DNA from: Ignavibacteria bacterium
GTDB taxonomy: Bacteria; Bacteroidota; Ignavibacteria; Tepidaquicellales; Tepidaquicellaceae
Length of the DNA stretch: 64,000 nt
Assembly: GCA_016929695.1 (NCBI GenBank)
Contig: JAFGII010000112.1
Coordinates: 1 to 64,000 of the forward strand
Reading direction: 5' to 3'
Position 1 is the stretch's first letter. Every line of letters starts with the position of its first letter. The notes below the pieces were generated by a model. It had not been told where the DNA came from and ran no database searches. It worked only from the letters and a program-made list of their open reading frames with translations. Shown one piece after another: positions 43,438 through 60,587 of the stretch. Both the position numbers and the translations under genes were made by a program.

Positions 43438-45735
43438 TTATTTGATAAGCATCATTCTCTTGACATCTGTGAATCCGTTTACATCCAGTTTATAGAAGTA
43501 AACACCGCTTGCGAAAGTGCTTGCATCGAAATCTACAATGTAGTTCCCTGCAGTCTTTACTTCATTGACTAAGTTTGCCACTTCTCTTCCGAGAACGTCA
43601 TAGACTTTCAGAGAGACAAGTCCCTGTTTCGGAATTGCAAAGTTAATCTTTGTTGTCGGGTTGAACGGGTTCGGATAGTTCTGTGACAATGCATAGGTTT
43701 CGGGAATACCGTTGCCGATTTGCCCGACTCCAAGTTGCGGTCCCGGATTAATGACTATACGAATATTTGGTAATTGCGTATAGGTACTACCCGGGGCAGT
43801 TATTTGTGTACATCCGTCACCTGATGAAAGGTCTGAATGCTGGTGTGCGTTTCTGCCTGATGCCGCTGCACCGTTCACCGTCGAATTTGAAGTGTATGAT
43901 GAATTGTTGAAGCAGACTTCAATCAACAGGTTTGAACCGCCTGTGTAATAGAACGGAGTCTGCAATGTTACTAACTGCCAGCCGGCGCCCGGTACGGCGT
44001 ATGTACCATCGTAAGCCGTTGTCCAGCCGGATGATGTAAATGATGAAATTGTTGTTACAGTAGTATTCTGCATCAATATTTTGAATCCGTTCATCACCTG
44101 AGATGCCGCTGATACAACATTAAATCCGATATGTGTAATGTAACCGCCCGTCGGAATATTAATTTCACTTCCGAGATAGAGCATATCTGTTCTGCTGTCC
44201 ATATAGAATGTGTAATATGGCCAGCCAATTGCCGTTGTACCTGTTCCGATTGTAATTGTTGCCTGATTGATAATCGTGAAGTTGTACTGTGCAGTTGAGT
44301 CCATATTATGCTGGTTAGATGCATCCCTTGCGACAACTCTGTAATAGATGACATCATTTACTGCAACCTGTGATGTATCTGAATTGAAGACGCCAGACCA
44401 GGCATTACCTGTTCCGTGAGCAAGGTTAAATCTGTTGAATGCACCGCTTGCACCTTTTCTCCAGGTAACCCATACGGAGTCAATTCCGAACGGGTCTGTT
44501 GCTGTACAGTTTACAGTTGCGGGCCAGTTTACTCTCGGAACATTTGCAAGCGGAGTGTGCGTAATTACAGGTTTGGTCGTATCCGAACTAACAGCAAGGA
44601 ACATATTTAAATTTGCCGGAGCACCACCCGGATGGACACCAACTTTGCCATTATTATCAATGGCTTTCAGATAATATCTGTATGTTGCTGCTAAGCCGTT
44701 ACCCGGAATATTTCCTGAATAGTTGTTACCGGTTCCCTGAGTCAAGTTCAATGAATCAGTTACTGTAGGATTGTTTCTTGACCAGAATAACTTTGCTGAA
44801 GAAATTGTGCTTCCGCTTGGGGGAGCAATTACGCAATTGACTACATACGGTCCGGTCAGATTCTGTGTATTCGGAAGCGGAGTATGTGTAATTTGCGGTC
44901 CGGCTGAGCCCGGAATTGCGAGTGCGTCAACTTCGCAGTTGAATGCACCGATTACCGTTGACATACCGGTTGTTGTATTGATTCTTCTTAATTCACCGAG
45001 TGTTGTATAAGAAGCCCAGTAGCAGGAGTCAACTGTTCTGTCCCAGTCCATACCCTGCGCATAGTTCGCGGCTGCACCTAATGAGCCTATCACTGTGCCT
45101 GCACCGGTAGTTTTGTTTATTGACCACAACATATCATCCGATATATTGACAGCATAAACCTGGCCGCTGTTGCTAATAGCCATATCAATCACGATACCCG
45201 TAACTGAACCGCCTAATTGTGTGAATACGCGGGTTGTTAAATTCAATGTACCAAGGAAACTATTTGTTGCATAGTTTACTGCATACATTGTATTGCTTGT
45301 CGGGTCCCAGCTCATACCTGTAACTGACGACACACCGGTAACTGTTCCTTGTGCAGTAATTGTTCCGGTTGTTGTATCAATTTTTACAAGTATATTATTT
45401 CCGTAACGTACACCCCACCAGTTATGCTGGTCGTCAAAGCAACCTGCCGATACGAAGTTTGCACTTAACGGGTCGGTTGACAATGAGGTTAGTGCTGCAG
45501 GATTGTTTAAGAAAAATTTAAACGGTCCGAGTGCTACAGCCGTACCGTAGGCATTGTATCCGAATGCCCTGCCGTTCCATACATATGGATTCGCAGGTGT
45601 CTGCACGAATACACCTGAATTTTTTCCGTCGGATTGAGGAGCTAATCCGTGGGAAGTCTGGTCCTGTGCCACTACCGGAAATACAAGTGCGAACACAATC
45701 ACCAGAGAAAACAAAGAAGTGAGTAGTTTTTTCAT
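43438..45735 (-). CDS. Large secreted protein with T9SS sorting domain
   Basis: A 765-aa exported protein. The signal peptide (SLVIVFALVFPVVAQ, about residues 9-23) is followed by a region of propeller-like blades to about residue 270 (repeats of INTTTG, VTGMSWDPTSN, MYAVNY). Two Ig-like domains begin at THTPLPN and THTPLAN (about 285-490). A jelly-roll-like segment precedes the C-terminal T9SS type A domain (SQNYPNPFNPTTKINFAIP ... ASGVYFYKLDVNG). A ribosome site GGAG lies 9 bases upstream. Its strong terminator suggests a well-expressed monocistronic gene. Likely a surface or released protein; function unknown. Confidence 0.88.
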   Translation of the reverse strand: MKKLLTSLFSLVIVFALVFPVVAQDQTSHGLAPQSDGKNSGVFVQTPANPYVWNGRAFGYNAYGTAVALGPFKFFLNNPAALTSLSTDPLSANFVSAGCFDDQHNWWGVRYGNNILVKIDTTTGTITAQGTVTGVSSVTGMSWDPTSNTMYAVNYATNSFLGTLNLTTRVFTQLGGSVTGIVIDMAISNSGQVYAVNISDDMLWSINKTTGAGTVIGSLGAAANYAQGMDWDRTVDSCYWASYTTLGELRRINTTTGMSTVIGAFNCEVDALAIPGSAGPQITHTPLPNTQNLTGPYVVNCVIAPPSGSTISSAKLFWSRNNPTVTDSLNLTQGTGNNYSGNIPGNGLAATYRYYLKAIDNNGKVGVHPGGAPANLNMFLAVSSDTTKPVITHTPLANVPRVNWPATVNCTATDPFGIDSVWVTWRKGASGAFNRFNLAHGTGNAWSGVFNSDTSQVAVNDVIYYRVVARDASNQHNMDSTAQYNFTIINQATITIGTGTTAIGWPYYTFYMDSRTDMLYLGSEINIPTGGYITHIGFNVVSAASQVMNGFKILMQNTTVTTISSFTSSGWTTAYDGTYAVPGAGWQLVTLQTPFYYTGGSNLLIEVCFNNSSYTSNSTVNGAAASGRNAHQHSDLSSGDGCTQITAPGSTYTQLPNIRIVINPGPQLGVGQIGNGIPETYALSQNYPNPFNPTTKINFAIPKQGLVSLKVYDVLGREVANLVNEVKTAGNYIVDFDASTFASGVYFYKLDVNGFTDVKRMMLIK

Positions 45736-48023: not shown

Positions 48024-48097
48024 GCCGGAGTAGCTCAGGTGGTCAGAGCGTCGGAATCATAATCCGCAGGTCGTGGGTTCAAGTCCCTCCTCCGGTA
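48024..48097 (+). tRNA. tRNA-Met/Ile2 (anticodon CAT)
   Basis: The cloverleaf can be drawn by hand: acceptor GCCGGAG pairs with CTCCGGT (first pair G-U). The D-arm is GCTC...GAGC, the anticodon loop ATCATAA gives CAT, and the T-loop is TTCAAGT. The anticodon stem lacks the three G-C pairs of initiator tRNA, so it is elongator Met or the CAT-anticodon tRNA-Ile read after lysidine modification. The top anticodon-stem pair (T-C) and one T-stem pair (T-T) are mismatched. CCA is not encoded. A terminator follows 23 bases later. Confidence 0.9.
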
Positions 48098-48120
48098 CAA
48101 GAATAAATACACGTGTAAAG

Positions 48121-48149
48121 CCCTGTTAGGTTAACAGGGTTTGTTTTTT
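48121..48149 (+). terminator. Rho-independent terminator after the tRNA
   Basis: CCCTGTTA-GGT-TAACAGGG is a perfect 8-bp stem and is followed by TTTGTTTTTT. It ends the tRNA transcript before the T9SS gene that starts at 48191. Confidence 0.92.
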
Positions 48150-48190
48150 AAGAAAAGAAAAGTTTATTACATAAACCTAAATAAACCGTA

Positions 48191-49702
48191 ATGAAAAAAA
48201 TAATATTACTTATCAGTTTATTTATTATAACAAATGTATTACTCCCCCAGAGTATAGATTTCATCACTCTGATGGAAAACTCCGAGCGGAATCCAAATAT
48301 GGTTATCGAAGCGAGGAAACTTGCCGGATTGCAGAATCTGCCCGTTTTAATTTATGTAAAAGACAAAGCATTTATCGAGGCAAGAGGCATAGAAAACGAA
48401 AAAATTGTATATACTGTTATAAGAGACTTTTATCATCCGTTTAATAATGGTTCAACAGGTTTCATAGAAAATATTTCCCTTGAATATGACCTTACCAGAG
48501 CAAGATTAATATACAACAACGGAAATATAGTTGATAATTCGGGTGAAGAAATTGTATATAATATATCTCCACGCACATCAATCATTTCGATGCTGCTGGT
48601 AATGGATTCCTACAACAACAAAGTAATAGGACTCGACACCCAGACAGGGGATATCATTGACACTTCATTTATTCCGAGACAGGATACTATGCTTGCTACT
48701 CCGAAAGTTGCGATGCAGACACCCTTGGGAAAAATTTTTATTTCGGACCAGATTAAAGACGTTGTTTATGAATTTGATACGGCGGGAACATTCATACAGA
48801 TTTTTGCTCCGCAGGGCGGACAGAATAACAGTATTCTTGATAATATAAGAGGAATCGGTTTCAGACCTAATAATAATTTACTTGTTACCGTTGGCAGCGG
48901 AGCAAACACAAATACGCTTCAGCAGTTCAGTTCGTCCGGAAGTCACATCGGTACATTTATTTCGAATCCGAGTTTAACAAGTCCGTTCGACGTAATATAT
49001 GTTGATAATAAATATTACGTAACAAGTTCTACAACCTCCGCTTCTGCAGTAAAAATCGGAATATTCGATTCTACCGGTGCCTATATAGGTCCTTTCACAA
49101 CGAGGGACAGCACGAGATTCTGCCAGCAGATAATAAAACTTGATGACGGAAATTTCGCGGTAGCCGCATTCAGTATCCCGGGCGTAGGAATACAGATTTT
49201 TTCACCGAACGGTACATTCATAAAAGTATTAACAGGAGTATCAAACAACCGGGGAGTATATCAGCTCGGTAACGGAAATTTTGTTACCACGAATGCTACC
49301 GGATTATATGAAATAGACGATACAACCGGTGCGCTGGTAAGAACAATTATTTCGGGAGCAAGTGTATTTTCGGGACAATATATTACTAAATATGTTCCAG
49401 GACCCGTCACCGGTATAAGCGGGAATAATACTGCGATTGATGATTTTAAATTAATGCAGAATTATCCGAATCCTTTTAATCCCGTTACAAAAATATATTT
49501 TGAGATTCCGAAACAAAGCAAAGTGAAGTTGACTGTATTTGACGTTCTTGGAAGGGAAATAAAGACAATCGTCAACACAGATTTGACTGCGGGTTCTTAC
49601 AATTACGAATTCGATGCGGGCAATATTTCAAGCGGTGTTTATTTTTATAAACTTCAGGCAGGAGATTACACTGCTGTCAGGAAGATGATGCTGCTGAGAT
49701 AG
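48191..49702 (+). CDS. Secreted beta-propeller protein with T9SS sorting domain
   Basis: A 503-aa exported protein. The signal peptide covers about residues 1-20 (IILLISLFIITNVLLPQS). The body has NHL/6-bladed-propeller-like repeats (VVYEFDTAGTFIQIFAP, TLQQFSSSGSHIGTFI, VKIGIFDSTGAYIGPF, VGIQIFSPNGTFIKVL). It ends in a T9SS type A domain (MQNYPNPFNPVTKIYFEIP ... SSGVYFYKLQAGDY). It is likely to be surface-attached; the ligand is unknown. A REP hairpin cluster begins about 50 bases downstream. Confidence 0.87.
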   Translation: MKKIILLISLFIITNVLLPQSIDFITLMENSERNPNMVIEARKLAGLQNLPVLIYVKDKAFIEARGIENEKIVYTVIRDFYHPFNNGSTGFIENISLEYDLTRARLIYNNGNIVDNSGEEIVYNISPRTSIISMLLVMDSYNNKVIGLDTQTGDIIDTSFIPRQDTMLATPKVAMQTPLGKIFISDQIKDVVYEFDTAGTFIQIFAPQGGQNNSILDNIRGIGFRPNNNLLVTVGSGANTNTLQQFSSSGSHIGTFISNPSLTSPFDVIYVDNKYYVTSSTTSASAVKIGIFDSTGAYIGPFTTRDSTRFCQQIIKLDDGNFAVAAFSIPGVGIQIFSPNGTFIKVLTGVSNNRGVYQLGNGNFVTTNATGLYEIDDTTGALVRTIISGASVFSGQYITKYVPGPVTGISGNNTAIDDFKLMQNYPNPFNPVTKIYFEIPKQSKVKLTVFDVLGREIKTIVNTDLTAGSYNYEFDAGNISSGVYFYKLQAGDYTAVRKMMLLR

Positions 49703-49754
49703 TTACTAAGGTTACAACACAGAAGTCTTAAAACCGATATGCTGAACATGATAA

Positions 49755-49938
49755 ATTCTGTTTACTACGCAGGAGCGCAGTAAACAGAATTTAGAAAATA
49801 GTTATTGAGGTTACAATTCAGGAACCTTGTAAACAGAATTTAGAAAACAGTTATTAAAGTTACAACGCAGGAGCATTGTAACCAGAATAAATAAAAGAGT
49901 AATCAAAACAACTCGATACTACGCTCCAGCGTAGTATC
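49755..49938. repeat. REP-like hairpins, upstream cluster (4 copies)
   Basis: Four palindromic units lie in the transposase 5' flank. 49755-49790 pairs 15 of 16 bases around loop AGGA. 49809-49834 is degenerate. 49859-49882 is GTTACAACGC-AGGA-GCATTGTAAC. 49915-49938 is GATACTACGC-TCCA-GCGTAGTATC, with a perfect 10-bp stem. Three are followed by CAGAA, or carry it inside the arm. The central GCAGGAGC is kept while arms differ with compensating changes. Confidence 0.85.
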
Positions 49939-49953
49939 TAAGAAAACTTAAAT

Positions 49954-50487
49954 GTGAGAAGTAAATATAAAATATATAATCACGAAGGTTCGTTCTTCCT
50001 CACTTCATCAATTGTTAACTGAATAAATATATTCAATTCTGAAATATGTATAAGCATTTTAGCAGATGCTATTAAATATAATCAAGAAAAAAGAAATCTC
50101 GAAATTTTTGCTTATGTTTTTATGAAAAATCATTTCCATTTGTTGTGCAGAGCAGAAAAACTCTCAAATGTCATGTCTTCAATTAAAAGTTACTCTGCTA
50201 AAAAAATAATTGAATATTTAAAATTCAATAATCGTAACGATATTCTCAAAGTTTTCAGAGATAATAAATTATCTTTTAAACATGACAGGTCATACCAGAT
50301 ATGGCAGGAAGGTTTTCATCCGCAAGAAATTGCAGGAGATGAAATATATAATCAGAAGTTAAATTATATACACAATAATCCTGTTAATGCAGGTTACGTA
50401 GATAACGCTGTAGACTGGAAATACAGTTCTGCTAGATTTTATCATCTTGAGGAAGAAGGAGTCATCAAAATAAAAGTTTTTAATTGA
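49954..50487 (+). pseudogene. REP-associated tyrosine transposase (RAYT), interrupted by an in-frame TGA
   Basis: Read from GTG at 49954, the frame gives an N-terminus typical of the family (SKYKIYNHEGSFFLTSSIVN), then TGA at 50020-50022 where relatives have a tryptophan codon. It continues INIFNSEICISIL through 50487 with no other stop. The HUH motif is FMKNHFHLLCRAE, the catalytic tyrosine candidate lies in IKSYSAKKIIEYL, and IHNNPVNAGYVDNAVDWKYSSA is the conserved C-terminus. From the first ATG after the stop (50122) only 121 aa remain. The TGG-to-TGA change is one base; the element is probably inactive unless the stop is read through. It lies between REP-like hairpins. Confidence 0.85.
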
Positions 50488-50492
50488 ATATC

Positions 50493-50623
50493 GGTTGCTA
50501 CGCCAGAGTGTAGTAACCAGAAGAGGGAACATCTTGTTATTAGGTTTATACGCAGGAGCGTAGTAACCAGAAGAGGAAAAAAAAAATTTTGAATAGCGGT
50601 TACTACGCAGGAGCGTAGTAACC
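50493..50623. repeat. REP-like hairpins, downstream cluster (3 copies)
   Basis: 50493-50518 is GGTTGCTACGC-CAGA-GTGTAGTAACC. 50543-50568 is GGTTTATACGC-AGGA-GCGTAGTAACC. 50598-50623 is GGTTACTACGC-AGGA-GCGTAGTAACC with a perfect 11-bp stem. Each is followed by AGAAG. All three share one orientation and period of about 50-55 bases. Confidence 0.88.
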
Positions 50624-50648
50624 AGAAGAAAAATTTCTTTGACTAATC

Positions 50649-55922: not shown

Positions 55923-55932
55923 TTTTTTCCCT

Positions 55933-55964
55933 CCTCATTGGATGAACAAGTTCATCCGACGAGG
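55933..55964. repeat. Inverted repeat, GATGAAC-AA-GTTCATC family (copy 1)
   Basis: Arms 55933-55947 and 55950-55964 pair over 15 positions with one mismatch and one G-T, around the centre GATGAACAAGTTCATC. The same centre is at 56503-56538. A further short hairpin (TATTATC...GATAATA) lies at about 55988-56007, just before the lipoprotein gene. Confidence 0.75.
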
Positions 55965-56020
55965 AAACTACGGAACCTGTATGAATTATTATCAGTTGAG
56001 ATAATAAACAGGTTCAAAAT

Positions 56021-56502: not shown

Positions 56503-56538
56503 TTTCTTATCCGATGAACAAGTTCATTGGATGAGAAA
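56503..56538. repeat. Inverted repeat, GATGAAC-AA-GTTCATC family (copy 2)
   Basis: Arms 56503-56519 and 56522-56538 pair over 17 positions with G-T pairs only, around CGATGAACAAGTTCATTG. Copy 1 is at 55933-55964, on the other side of the lipoprotein gene. Arms differ between the copies but remain paired. Confidence 0.75.
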
Positions 56539-56542
56539 AAAT

Positions 56543-56576
56543 AAAAAAAACGTTTCCGAGCAGGAGCCCGGGAACG
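56543..56576 (-). terminator. REP-type hairpin acting as terminator of hppA
   Basis: On the minus strand, C-GTTCCCGGGC-TCCT-GCTCGGAAAC-G (11-bp stem, one mismatch) is followed by eight Ts. The centre read on the plus strand is GCAGGAGC, the same core as the REP hairpins near the transposase. It sits about 40 bases after the hppA stop. Confidence 0.75.
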
Positions 56577-60141: not shown

Positions 60142-60587
60142 AATTTTCCTGTAAACTATTAAACGTGTAATATATTGTTTTTGTAAATTTTTATCAATAG
60201 AATTTTGAATATCTTTGTTTCGTTAGGTGAAAATTATAATAATCCTTAAAATAATCTTAAAGTGTCATTCGGAATTCTTAGATGAGTTTAATTTTTCCAT
60301 AACTCCTAAATTTCACCGTGAAATGGTAAGGTTTTTTTACTACGCCGGAGTATGGTAAACAGAAGGATTATCCGGTTAATGGATTATTATTCAAATACAA
60401 ATTTGAAATTTCGATTTTTCAATAGTTTTTTTATAAAATGAAAAATAAATATTCTGCTCCTTTAGATAATTCCCTTTTAAAAGTAATACCTGAGGTATAA
60501 CTTGGTCAGTCCGGAACCGATGGGACTATTCCACGGTCTGACGAAAAAGTTTAAGGTTTGTACATTATTTTAAACTATCAGATTAAT
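60142..60587. other. Intergenic with a REP-like hairpin and short palindromes
   Basis: No gene is seen. 60336-60359 is a decayed REP unit (TTTACTACGC-CGGA-GTATGGTAAA) followed by CAGAAGG, as at the transposase locus. 60486-60498 is the odd palindrome ATACCTGAGGTAT. From 60504 to 60542 GTCAG...CTGAC and AGTCC...GGGACT can pair, suggesting a small folded segment. The promoter of rplY-pth should lie just above 60141. Confidence 0.5.

Follow-up and report, generated by a model that had tools for sequence, protein, structure and literature searches.

The usual definition of a REP rests on its GTAG foot, which guides cleavage. The TnpA_REP enzymes were described, in the accessible text of PMC8266576, to recognise the hairpin together with GTAG and to cut at CT, in one case also at CA. 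A departure from this scheme is subclass 2.6 of Quentin et al. (2018, PMC6006769), whose RAYTs have, in the available parts of that paper, atypical flanking hairpins without GT[AG]G and with copies elsewhere in the genome; for class 2 overall the same parts allow F in the HuH motif. CGTC-tagged REPs were reported also in Chlorobi and Bacteroidetes in the text available of Di Nocera et al. (2013, PMC3733652). According to the accessible portion of Nunvar 2013, high REP abundance depends on a cognate RAYT, exceptions being ascribed to mutated flanking REPs or RAYT loss.

Here we analysed a window of 64,000 nucleotides (bases 1-64000 of contig C26) of a 2.78-Mb genome (124 contigs, 99.55% complete), in which a RAYT gene is surrounded by hairpins. 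We read the locus, with a probability of about 0.8, as a REPtron, in which the RAYT, of the Quentin 2.6 / Bertels group 5 type, is surrounded by a cluster of non-GTAG REP hairpins that belong to it. The REP type here combines an 11-bp stem and an (N)GGA loop with an AG that immediately follows the stem on its 3' side and appears on the opposite strand as CT at the 5' foot.

Judged by protein features, the window protein appears to fit subclass 2.6 (Bertels group 5) best. It shares with the subclass, as far as the available description extends, a length of about 177-180 aa (median 179), WQ, YIH[QN]NP and SS in the tail, and its gap from HUH to WQ is about 23 residues longer than in E. coli TnpA_REP, the alphaC:beta4 insertion given there for subclass 2.6 being 21. 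Flanking hairpins without GT[AG]G and genome copies are also common to both in that description, a likeness of arrangement. Unlike the NH[LIV]H given for subclass 2.6, the HuH motif here is NHFH, and while members of the subclass are described there as mostly Bacteroidetes, the best 80 of 562 RAYT relatives here span several phyla. The locus resembles the canonical GTAG REPs and REPINs of Pseudomonas, Stenotrophomonas and E. coli in its RAYT between inverted palindromes, dispersed copies, inverted doublets of fixed spacing and RAYT-specific stems, but the GT[AG]G foot is absent, the conserved foot being an AG past the 3' end of the stem (CT on the complementary strand), and tens of copies are found here compared to the hundreds typical of Pseudomonas REPs. 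Short stem-loops with a loop of 4-5 nt are shared with the CGTC-tagged REPs as the available text describes them (PMC3733652); in contrast to that text description, our consensus has no CGTC tag or CCA tail, and the hairpins flank RAYTs, which the CGTC repeats were reported there not to do.

Hairpins around the RAYT gene

The earlier note on this DNA had claimed seven hairpins within about 870 bases around the RAYT, and all of them are present at 49752-50623. The features of the locus, together with one distant copy in the window, are as follows.

49710..49735, + strand: degenerate eighth REP unit, in which the outer four arm positions alone still pair; without AG tag
49752..49793, + strand: REP hairpin with 19-nt arms, centre GCAGGAGC
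49809..49834, + strand: REP hairpin, weakened, centre TCAGGAAC
49858..49883, + strand: REP hairpin, centre GCAGGAGC
49915..49938, - strand: REP hairpin, reversed, 15 bp upstream of the GTG start
49954..50487, + strand: RAYT (TnpA_REP-like HUH/Y1 transposase) gene with GTG start, interrupted by TGA; NF047646 REP_Tyr_transpos
50020..50022, + strand: in-frame TGA stop at codon 23
50493..50518, + strand: REP hairpin, centre GCCAGAGT
50543..50568, + strand: REP hairpin, centre GCAGGAGC, two internal mismatches
50598..50623, + strand: REP hairpin, perfect 11-bp stem, centre GCAGGAGC
60335..60360, + strand: isolated family copy with loop CGGA, weak (R1, E 6e-4)

Five units lie upstream of the RAYT, four forward (one of them degenerate) and one reverse, with their centres 49-56 bp apart; downstream, three forward units follow at spacings of 50 and 55 bp, the whole cluster being bordered by a 503-aa gene on one side and a 255-aa gene on the other. 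The reverse hairpin at 49915-49938 is the counterpart of one seen upstream of many RAYT relatives. When folded as single-stranded DNA, six of the seven hairpins far exceeded dinucleotide shuffles (z -4.8 to -10.1, none of 200 shuffles as good), and the hairpin at 49809-49834 was no better than them (z -1.07; 34/200 as good). A hairpin scan of the whole window yielded 16 strong hairpins, four of which belong to the RAYT cluster, as against 1, 5 and 2 in three shuffles.

The exact GCAGGAGC centre occurs in four of the seven hairpins, the remaining centres being TCAGGAAC, GCCAGAGT and, on the minus strand, GCTGGAGC. CAGAA(G), previously proposed as a conserved trailing element, is conserved in part: CAGAA is found at 6/7 cluster hairpins, and across relatives only the AG right after the stem is conserved, which is present in 7/7 here. 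The proposed covariation of the arms was borne out by a nine-sequence alignment, with 7 double-changed cells compared to 2.3 after shuffling; we ascribe it to selection acting on pairing. Stems centred on GCAGGAGC with other arms were also seen, one with GTTTCCGA/CCGGGAAC at 56551-56576 of the window and one of 16 bp at L036 (C68:64948).

Dispersed copies in the genome

The covariance model R1 was built from nine hairpins, seven in the window and two picked among GCAGGAGC sites, all of which match it by construction. Its search of the genome gave 80 matches at E<=10 and 51 at E<=0.03; removal of two reverse-strand echoes from the latter left 49 non-redundant hairpins, 35 of them at E<=0.001. 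Eight of the 49 lie in the window (seven beside the RAYT and the one at 60335-60360) and 41 outside it. This genome-wide model had been proposed in the earlier note, which named confinement of the hairpins to the RAYT locus, or arms varying elsewhere without compensation, as findings that would speak against its reading. Neither was observed: besides the 41 outside copies, an alignment of 43 genomic copies (41 distinct) holds 46 double changes compared to 13.5 in shuffles, and sliding the partner strand by 1-3 columns leaves 4-9. Standard pairs occupy 91.6% of the pair cells of these 43 copies, in an alignment that, having been fitted to the model, is biased in its favour.

The loop core is mostly AGGA at the RAYT locus, as had been noted from the sequence, and mostly CGGA or TGGA in the dispersed copies. 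Likewise, the GCAGGAGC centre regarded as fixed holds for the RAYT locus but not elsewhere, the dispersed copies being mostly GCYGGAGC, i.e. GCCGGAGC or GCTGGAGC. The genome contains 83 GCAGGAGC sites and 10 of the reversed pattern; as a measure of family size this count, also suggested earlier, is overstated, as only about 10 of the 83 sites have paired arms (by eye). A strict hairpin pattern was found 32 times in the genome, never in reversed form and in neither of two genomes of the same genus.

Among the 49 copies there are five inverted hairpin pairs, all at exactly 37-bp spacing, and most other copies are unpaired; a sixth pair of this kind, on C60, fell below the cut-off. The family thus consists of REPs in the broad sense, dispersed short palindromes in many copies, and the five 37-bp pairs correspond to REPINs, two inverted REPs at fixed spacing. 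Twelve of the 49 copies lie <=300 bp from a contig end, zones which make up ~3% of the genome, as expected because repeats break assemblies.

The interrupted RAYT gene and its relatives

From its GTG start the frame reads as in intact relatives (MRSxYKI...) up to the TGA at codon 23, a position occupied by tryptophan in 13/15 intact clade-A relatives (clade A comprises the window gene and 15 further loci of the order). The NF047646 REP_Tyr_transpos match covers 50023-50487, the part after the stop (95 bits), and the remaining ATG-started ORF at 50122-50487 is without the N-terminal part. Reading of TGA as tryptophan was ruled out, since 10 of the 49 listed window ORFs end in TGA and contain 128 TGG codons. 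The window therefore holds no intact RAYT ORF, whereas the 15 clade-A relatives are stop-free in the matched part, and the earlier reading of the locus as a complete REP-RAYT system is not supported. The catalytic motifs typical of RAYTs, HUH and a single tyrosine in a Y---NP context, are both intact, with NHFH at 50128-50139 and the tyrosine of YIHNNP at 50365-50367; an alignment of 15 sequences, among them that of the window, shows no variation at H60, H62 and Y138, and an HMM comparison matched E. coli TnpA_REP 4ER8 (E 6.6e-11) with the Y motif aligned. HFH is found in 14/16 clade-A sequences, window included, and HIH in L139 and L151, the preceding residue being N, D or E. As the RAYT carries a stop codon, the hairpins spread across the genome have probably been left without their enzyme or are in the course of losing it.

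Protein searches of 44 genomes of the order (E<=1e-15) identified 27 RAYT loci in 18 genomes, our own included. Nine GLRGRK-type proteins are set apart by the tree (support 99/99), 16 loci form clade A, in which L130, at 61% identity, is closest to the window gene, and L146 and L153 are more distant and belong to neither. A hairpin of the cluster's type was detected within 1 kb of 15/16 clade-A loci, 13 of these having fitting NGG loops and L139 and L151 TGA/TCA loops; the sixteenth, L149, has a weaker hairpin that fell short of our threshold, and none of the 11 other loci in the order had one that reached it. By eye, GTCAGG stems were seen in the stem-loops of 8/9 GLRGRK-type loci, and GTCAGATG at L155; the hairpins beside this sister clade (L140-L145, L152, L154 and L155) form a different family, with GTCAG stems.

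The stem tips of the clade-A hairpins are locus-specific (ACGC, AAGC, AAAC, AACG, AATC, AAAT). They are shared by 4/5 pairs of sister RAYTs, L149 left out, a proportion matched by 0.5% of shuffles. That the sister RAYTs L133/L134 differ in the apex counts against our reading. Five genomes have two clade-A RAYTs, and the tips clearly differ in three of them (G025, G030 and G031), are AAAT and AAAC in G016, and are unscored at one locus of G021. Hairpins per genome had a median of 34 in the 11 clade-A genomes (own included) compared to 4 in the 33 others (one-sided p 0.0003), with a pattern that was derived from hairpins of some of the same loci and favours them. Several results go against the REPtron reading: hairpin-rich genomes without a clade-A RAYT match (G023 with 44, G004 with 40, G020 with 36, G014 with 29), G039 and G016 with a RAYT and only 1 and 5 hairpins, and the detection by R1 of only 6/27 RAYT loci at E<=0.05. 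These mixed counts fit the exceptions given in the accessible portion of Nunvar 2013. At L077 (C123:170-1177), the repeated intergenic stretches CGCAAAGGCGCAACGGACGCAAAG and CACAGATAGCGCAGATAGGCGCAGATTT lie beside a hairpin.

Relatives in other phyla were taken from a scan of genome contigs as the best 80 of 562, several of them from Pseudomonas; L156 and L159, which appear to repeat the order loci L130 and L135, were kept. At 35-47% identity, these best 80 include Pseudomonas, Methylococcales, Cyanobacteria, Planctomycetes and others. AG-tagged hairpin positions reached 4.3/kb at <=150 bp from the RAYT and fell to 1.0 and 0.12/kb further out across the 80 loci, counted as positions, so that a single hairpin may enter in more than one register. 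The nearest tagged hairpins were in reverse orientation upstream (34/41) and forward downstream (40/48). Within 160 bp, tagged hairpins were present upstream at 39/76 and downstream at 47/77 evaluable loci; of the 73 loci evaluable on both sides, only 36 had them on both and 26 on neither, figures that again speak against the REPtron reading. The same apex was found at both ends in 37/39 loci (shuffled mean 10.0, maximum 20), an equality that could also arise from local duplication.

Hairpins picked by structure and position only, 20-100 bp from the RAYT, numbered 87 in 61 of these best 80 loci. Their consensus is (TG)CGTTCCCA[C/A]GC-(N)GGA-GC[G/T]TGGGAACG-AG. AG follows the stem in 58/87, with little conservation further out, and in the 5' flank of the 87 hairpins the canonical REP foot GT[AG]G was not conserved, only a weak preference for TG being seen. 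A literature search on pieces of the consensus and on the topic returned no title on such a hairpin class; sequences in figures and supplements lay outside its reach, and the consensus may be published.

In both genomes of the same genus, neither a hairpin nor a RAYT match (E<=1e-15) was found. In both, the counterpart of the 765-aa gene (43438-45735 here) lies no more than about 360-520 bp past the 788- and 255-aa genes, with a tRNA-Met gene in that interval (48024-48098 here). The tRNA-Met gene and the 255-aa gene are about 60 and 100 bp apart in these genomes, as against 2.55 kb in the window. At 48098-50648 of the window the 503-aa gene, the hairpins and the RAYT directly follow the tRNA-Met gene, which in the same-genus genomes adjoins the 255-aa gene at once. 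Gain here or loss in the same-genus genomes may each explain this difference.

Alternative explanations and a possible mechanism

That the REP hairpins belong to the RAYT, as had been suggested, is well supported by their genome copies, their covarying arms, the joint absence of both from the two same-genus genomes and the recurrence of the arrangement across phyla; at 15/16 clade-A loci of the order hairpins flank the RAYT, but a RAYT match is lacking in several other genomes that contain hairpins. The main competing explanation, which we consider unlikely, is that a larger mosaic intergenic repeat, copied by other means, carries the hairpins along as passengers, the RAYT being incidental. 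This repeat has a left module ending in AAATTCTGYGYAAAATGGCAAAGAAT and a right module CCGGCTTGACCGGGTTATGAATT; many of the hairpin copies here sit within it, so that something other than the hairpin may be the unit that moves, and no insertion event was observed. A doublet element of 135-181 bp is present in six copies (query included), 29 further matches consist of the 44-nt left module or a part of it only, and in L241-L260 a hairpin core lies <=60 nt from just 1/23 module copies. Against the passenger explanation, the hairpins beside the RAYT and several others are without the modules (by eye), and beside RAYTs of other genomes conservation is limited to the hairpin and its foot. The mosaic repeat was also observed at 2144-2187 of the window and at about 45 other places in the genome, with a left module (..CCATTAGTTTTCAAATTCTGYGYAAAATGGCAAAGAAT) followed by varied inner parts that are sometimes REP hairpins, several copies having the right module CCGGCTTGACCGGGTTATGAATT.

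An insertion sequence made up of the RAYT and the bracketing inverted hairpins as its ends seems improbable to us. It would account for the reverse hairpin upstream and the forward one downstream at similar distances in many loci, comparable to IS200/IS605 ends, and for the lack of the RAYT segment in two same-genus genomes, where it would lie between the tRNA-Met gene and the 255-aa gene; but the absent segment includes the 503-aa gene as well, hairpins far outnumber the genes, and genomes have one or two clade-A copies, the proteins being clearly different where there are two. Retention of the hairpins mainly as RNA elements (terminators or mRNA stabilisers) is very improbable: the stems are stable and the hairpin at 49915-49938 carries, on the minus strand, a T tract like that of a terminator, but it is the only one of the seven with such a call, no Rfam family matches the cluster hairpins at E<=1, and neither the RAYT-specific tips nor the absence from both same-genus genomes, which gave no RAYT match, would be explained. 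An origin by chance, or from a single palindrome by tandem duplication at this site only, has next to no probability, even though the upstream hairpins form a regular ~49 bp array in which two units match the first with 78% and 71% identity along all 49 nt; it is refuted by the 41 dispersed copies outside the window, and double substitutions and the same arrangement in other genomes also oppose it.

We therefore retain the REPtron reading, in which the locus is ordinary in kind and real, with non-GTAG REPs and a broken enzyme. By analogy with TnpA_REP of E. coli and Stenotrophomonas, the RAYT would have bound the hairpin in single-stranded DNA, cut next to its foot and joined the cut hairpin elsewhere, by which copies could have been seeded across the genome. 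The conserved AG foot, which reads as a CT preceding the hairpin on the complementary strand, may have been a cut or guide site. We tentatively propose, at somewhat less than even odds, that group-5-like RAYTs of many phyla share one non-GTAG REP superfamily with a CT foot on one strand, an (N)GGA loop and CGTTCCCA in the lower stem, and that the four base pairs at the stem tip would serve as an address for each RAYT, so that two RAYT/REP pairs can coexist in one genome. A widespread class with a different conserved foot would offer an independent system for the choice of cut site and for the joint change of enzyme and repeat. Moreover, a RAYT with a stop codon whose repeats persist bears on how long REP populations outlive their enzyme.

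The genome has a second PF01797 match, on C94, which is intact and distant; in the R1 search no match at E<=0.05 lay near this second RAYT. A second dispersed hairpin family, with centre ATGAACAAGTTCAT, is found in the window at 55932-55965 and 56503-56538 and has 34 exact copies in the genome; among the 43 further genomes of the order, 38 contain no copy and five a single one each. About 90 bp downstream of the C94 RAYT there is a hairpin whose outer arms are similar to those of the ATGAACAAGTTCAT family, and the C94 RAYT might be the enzyme of that family.
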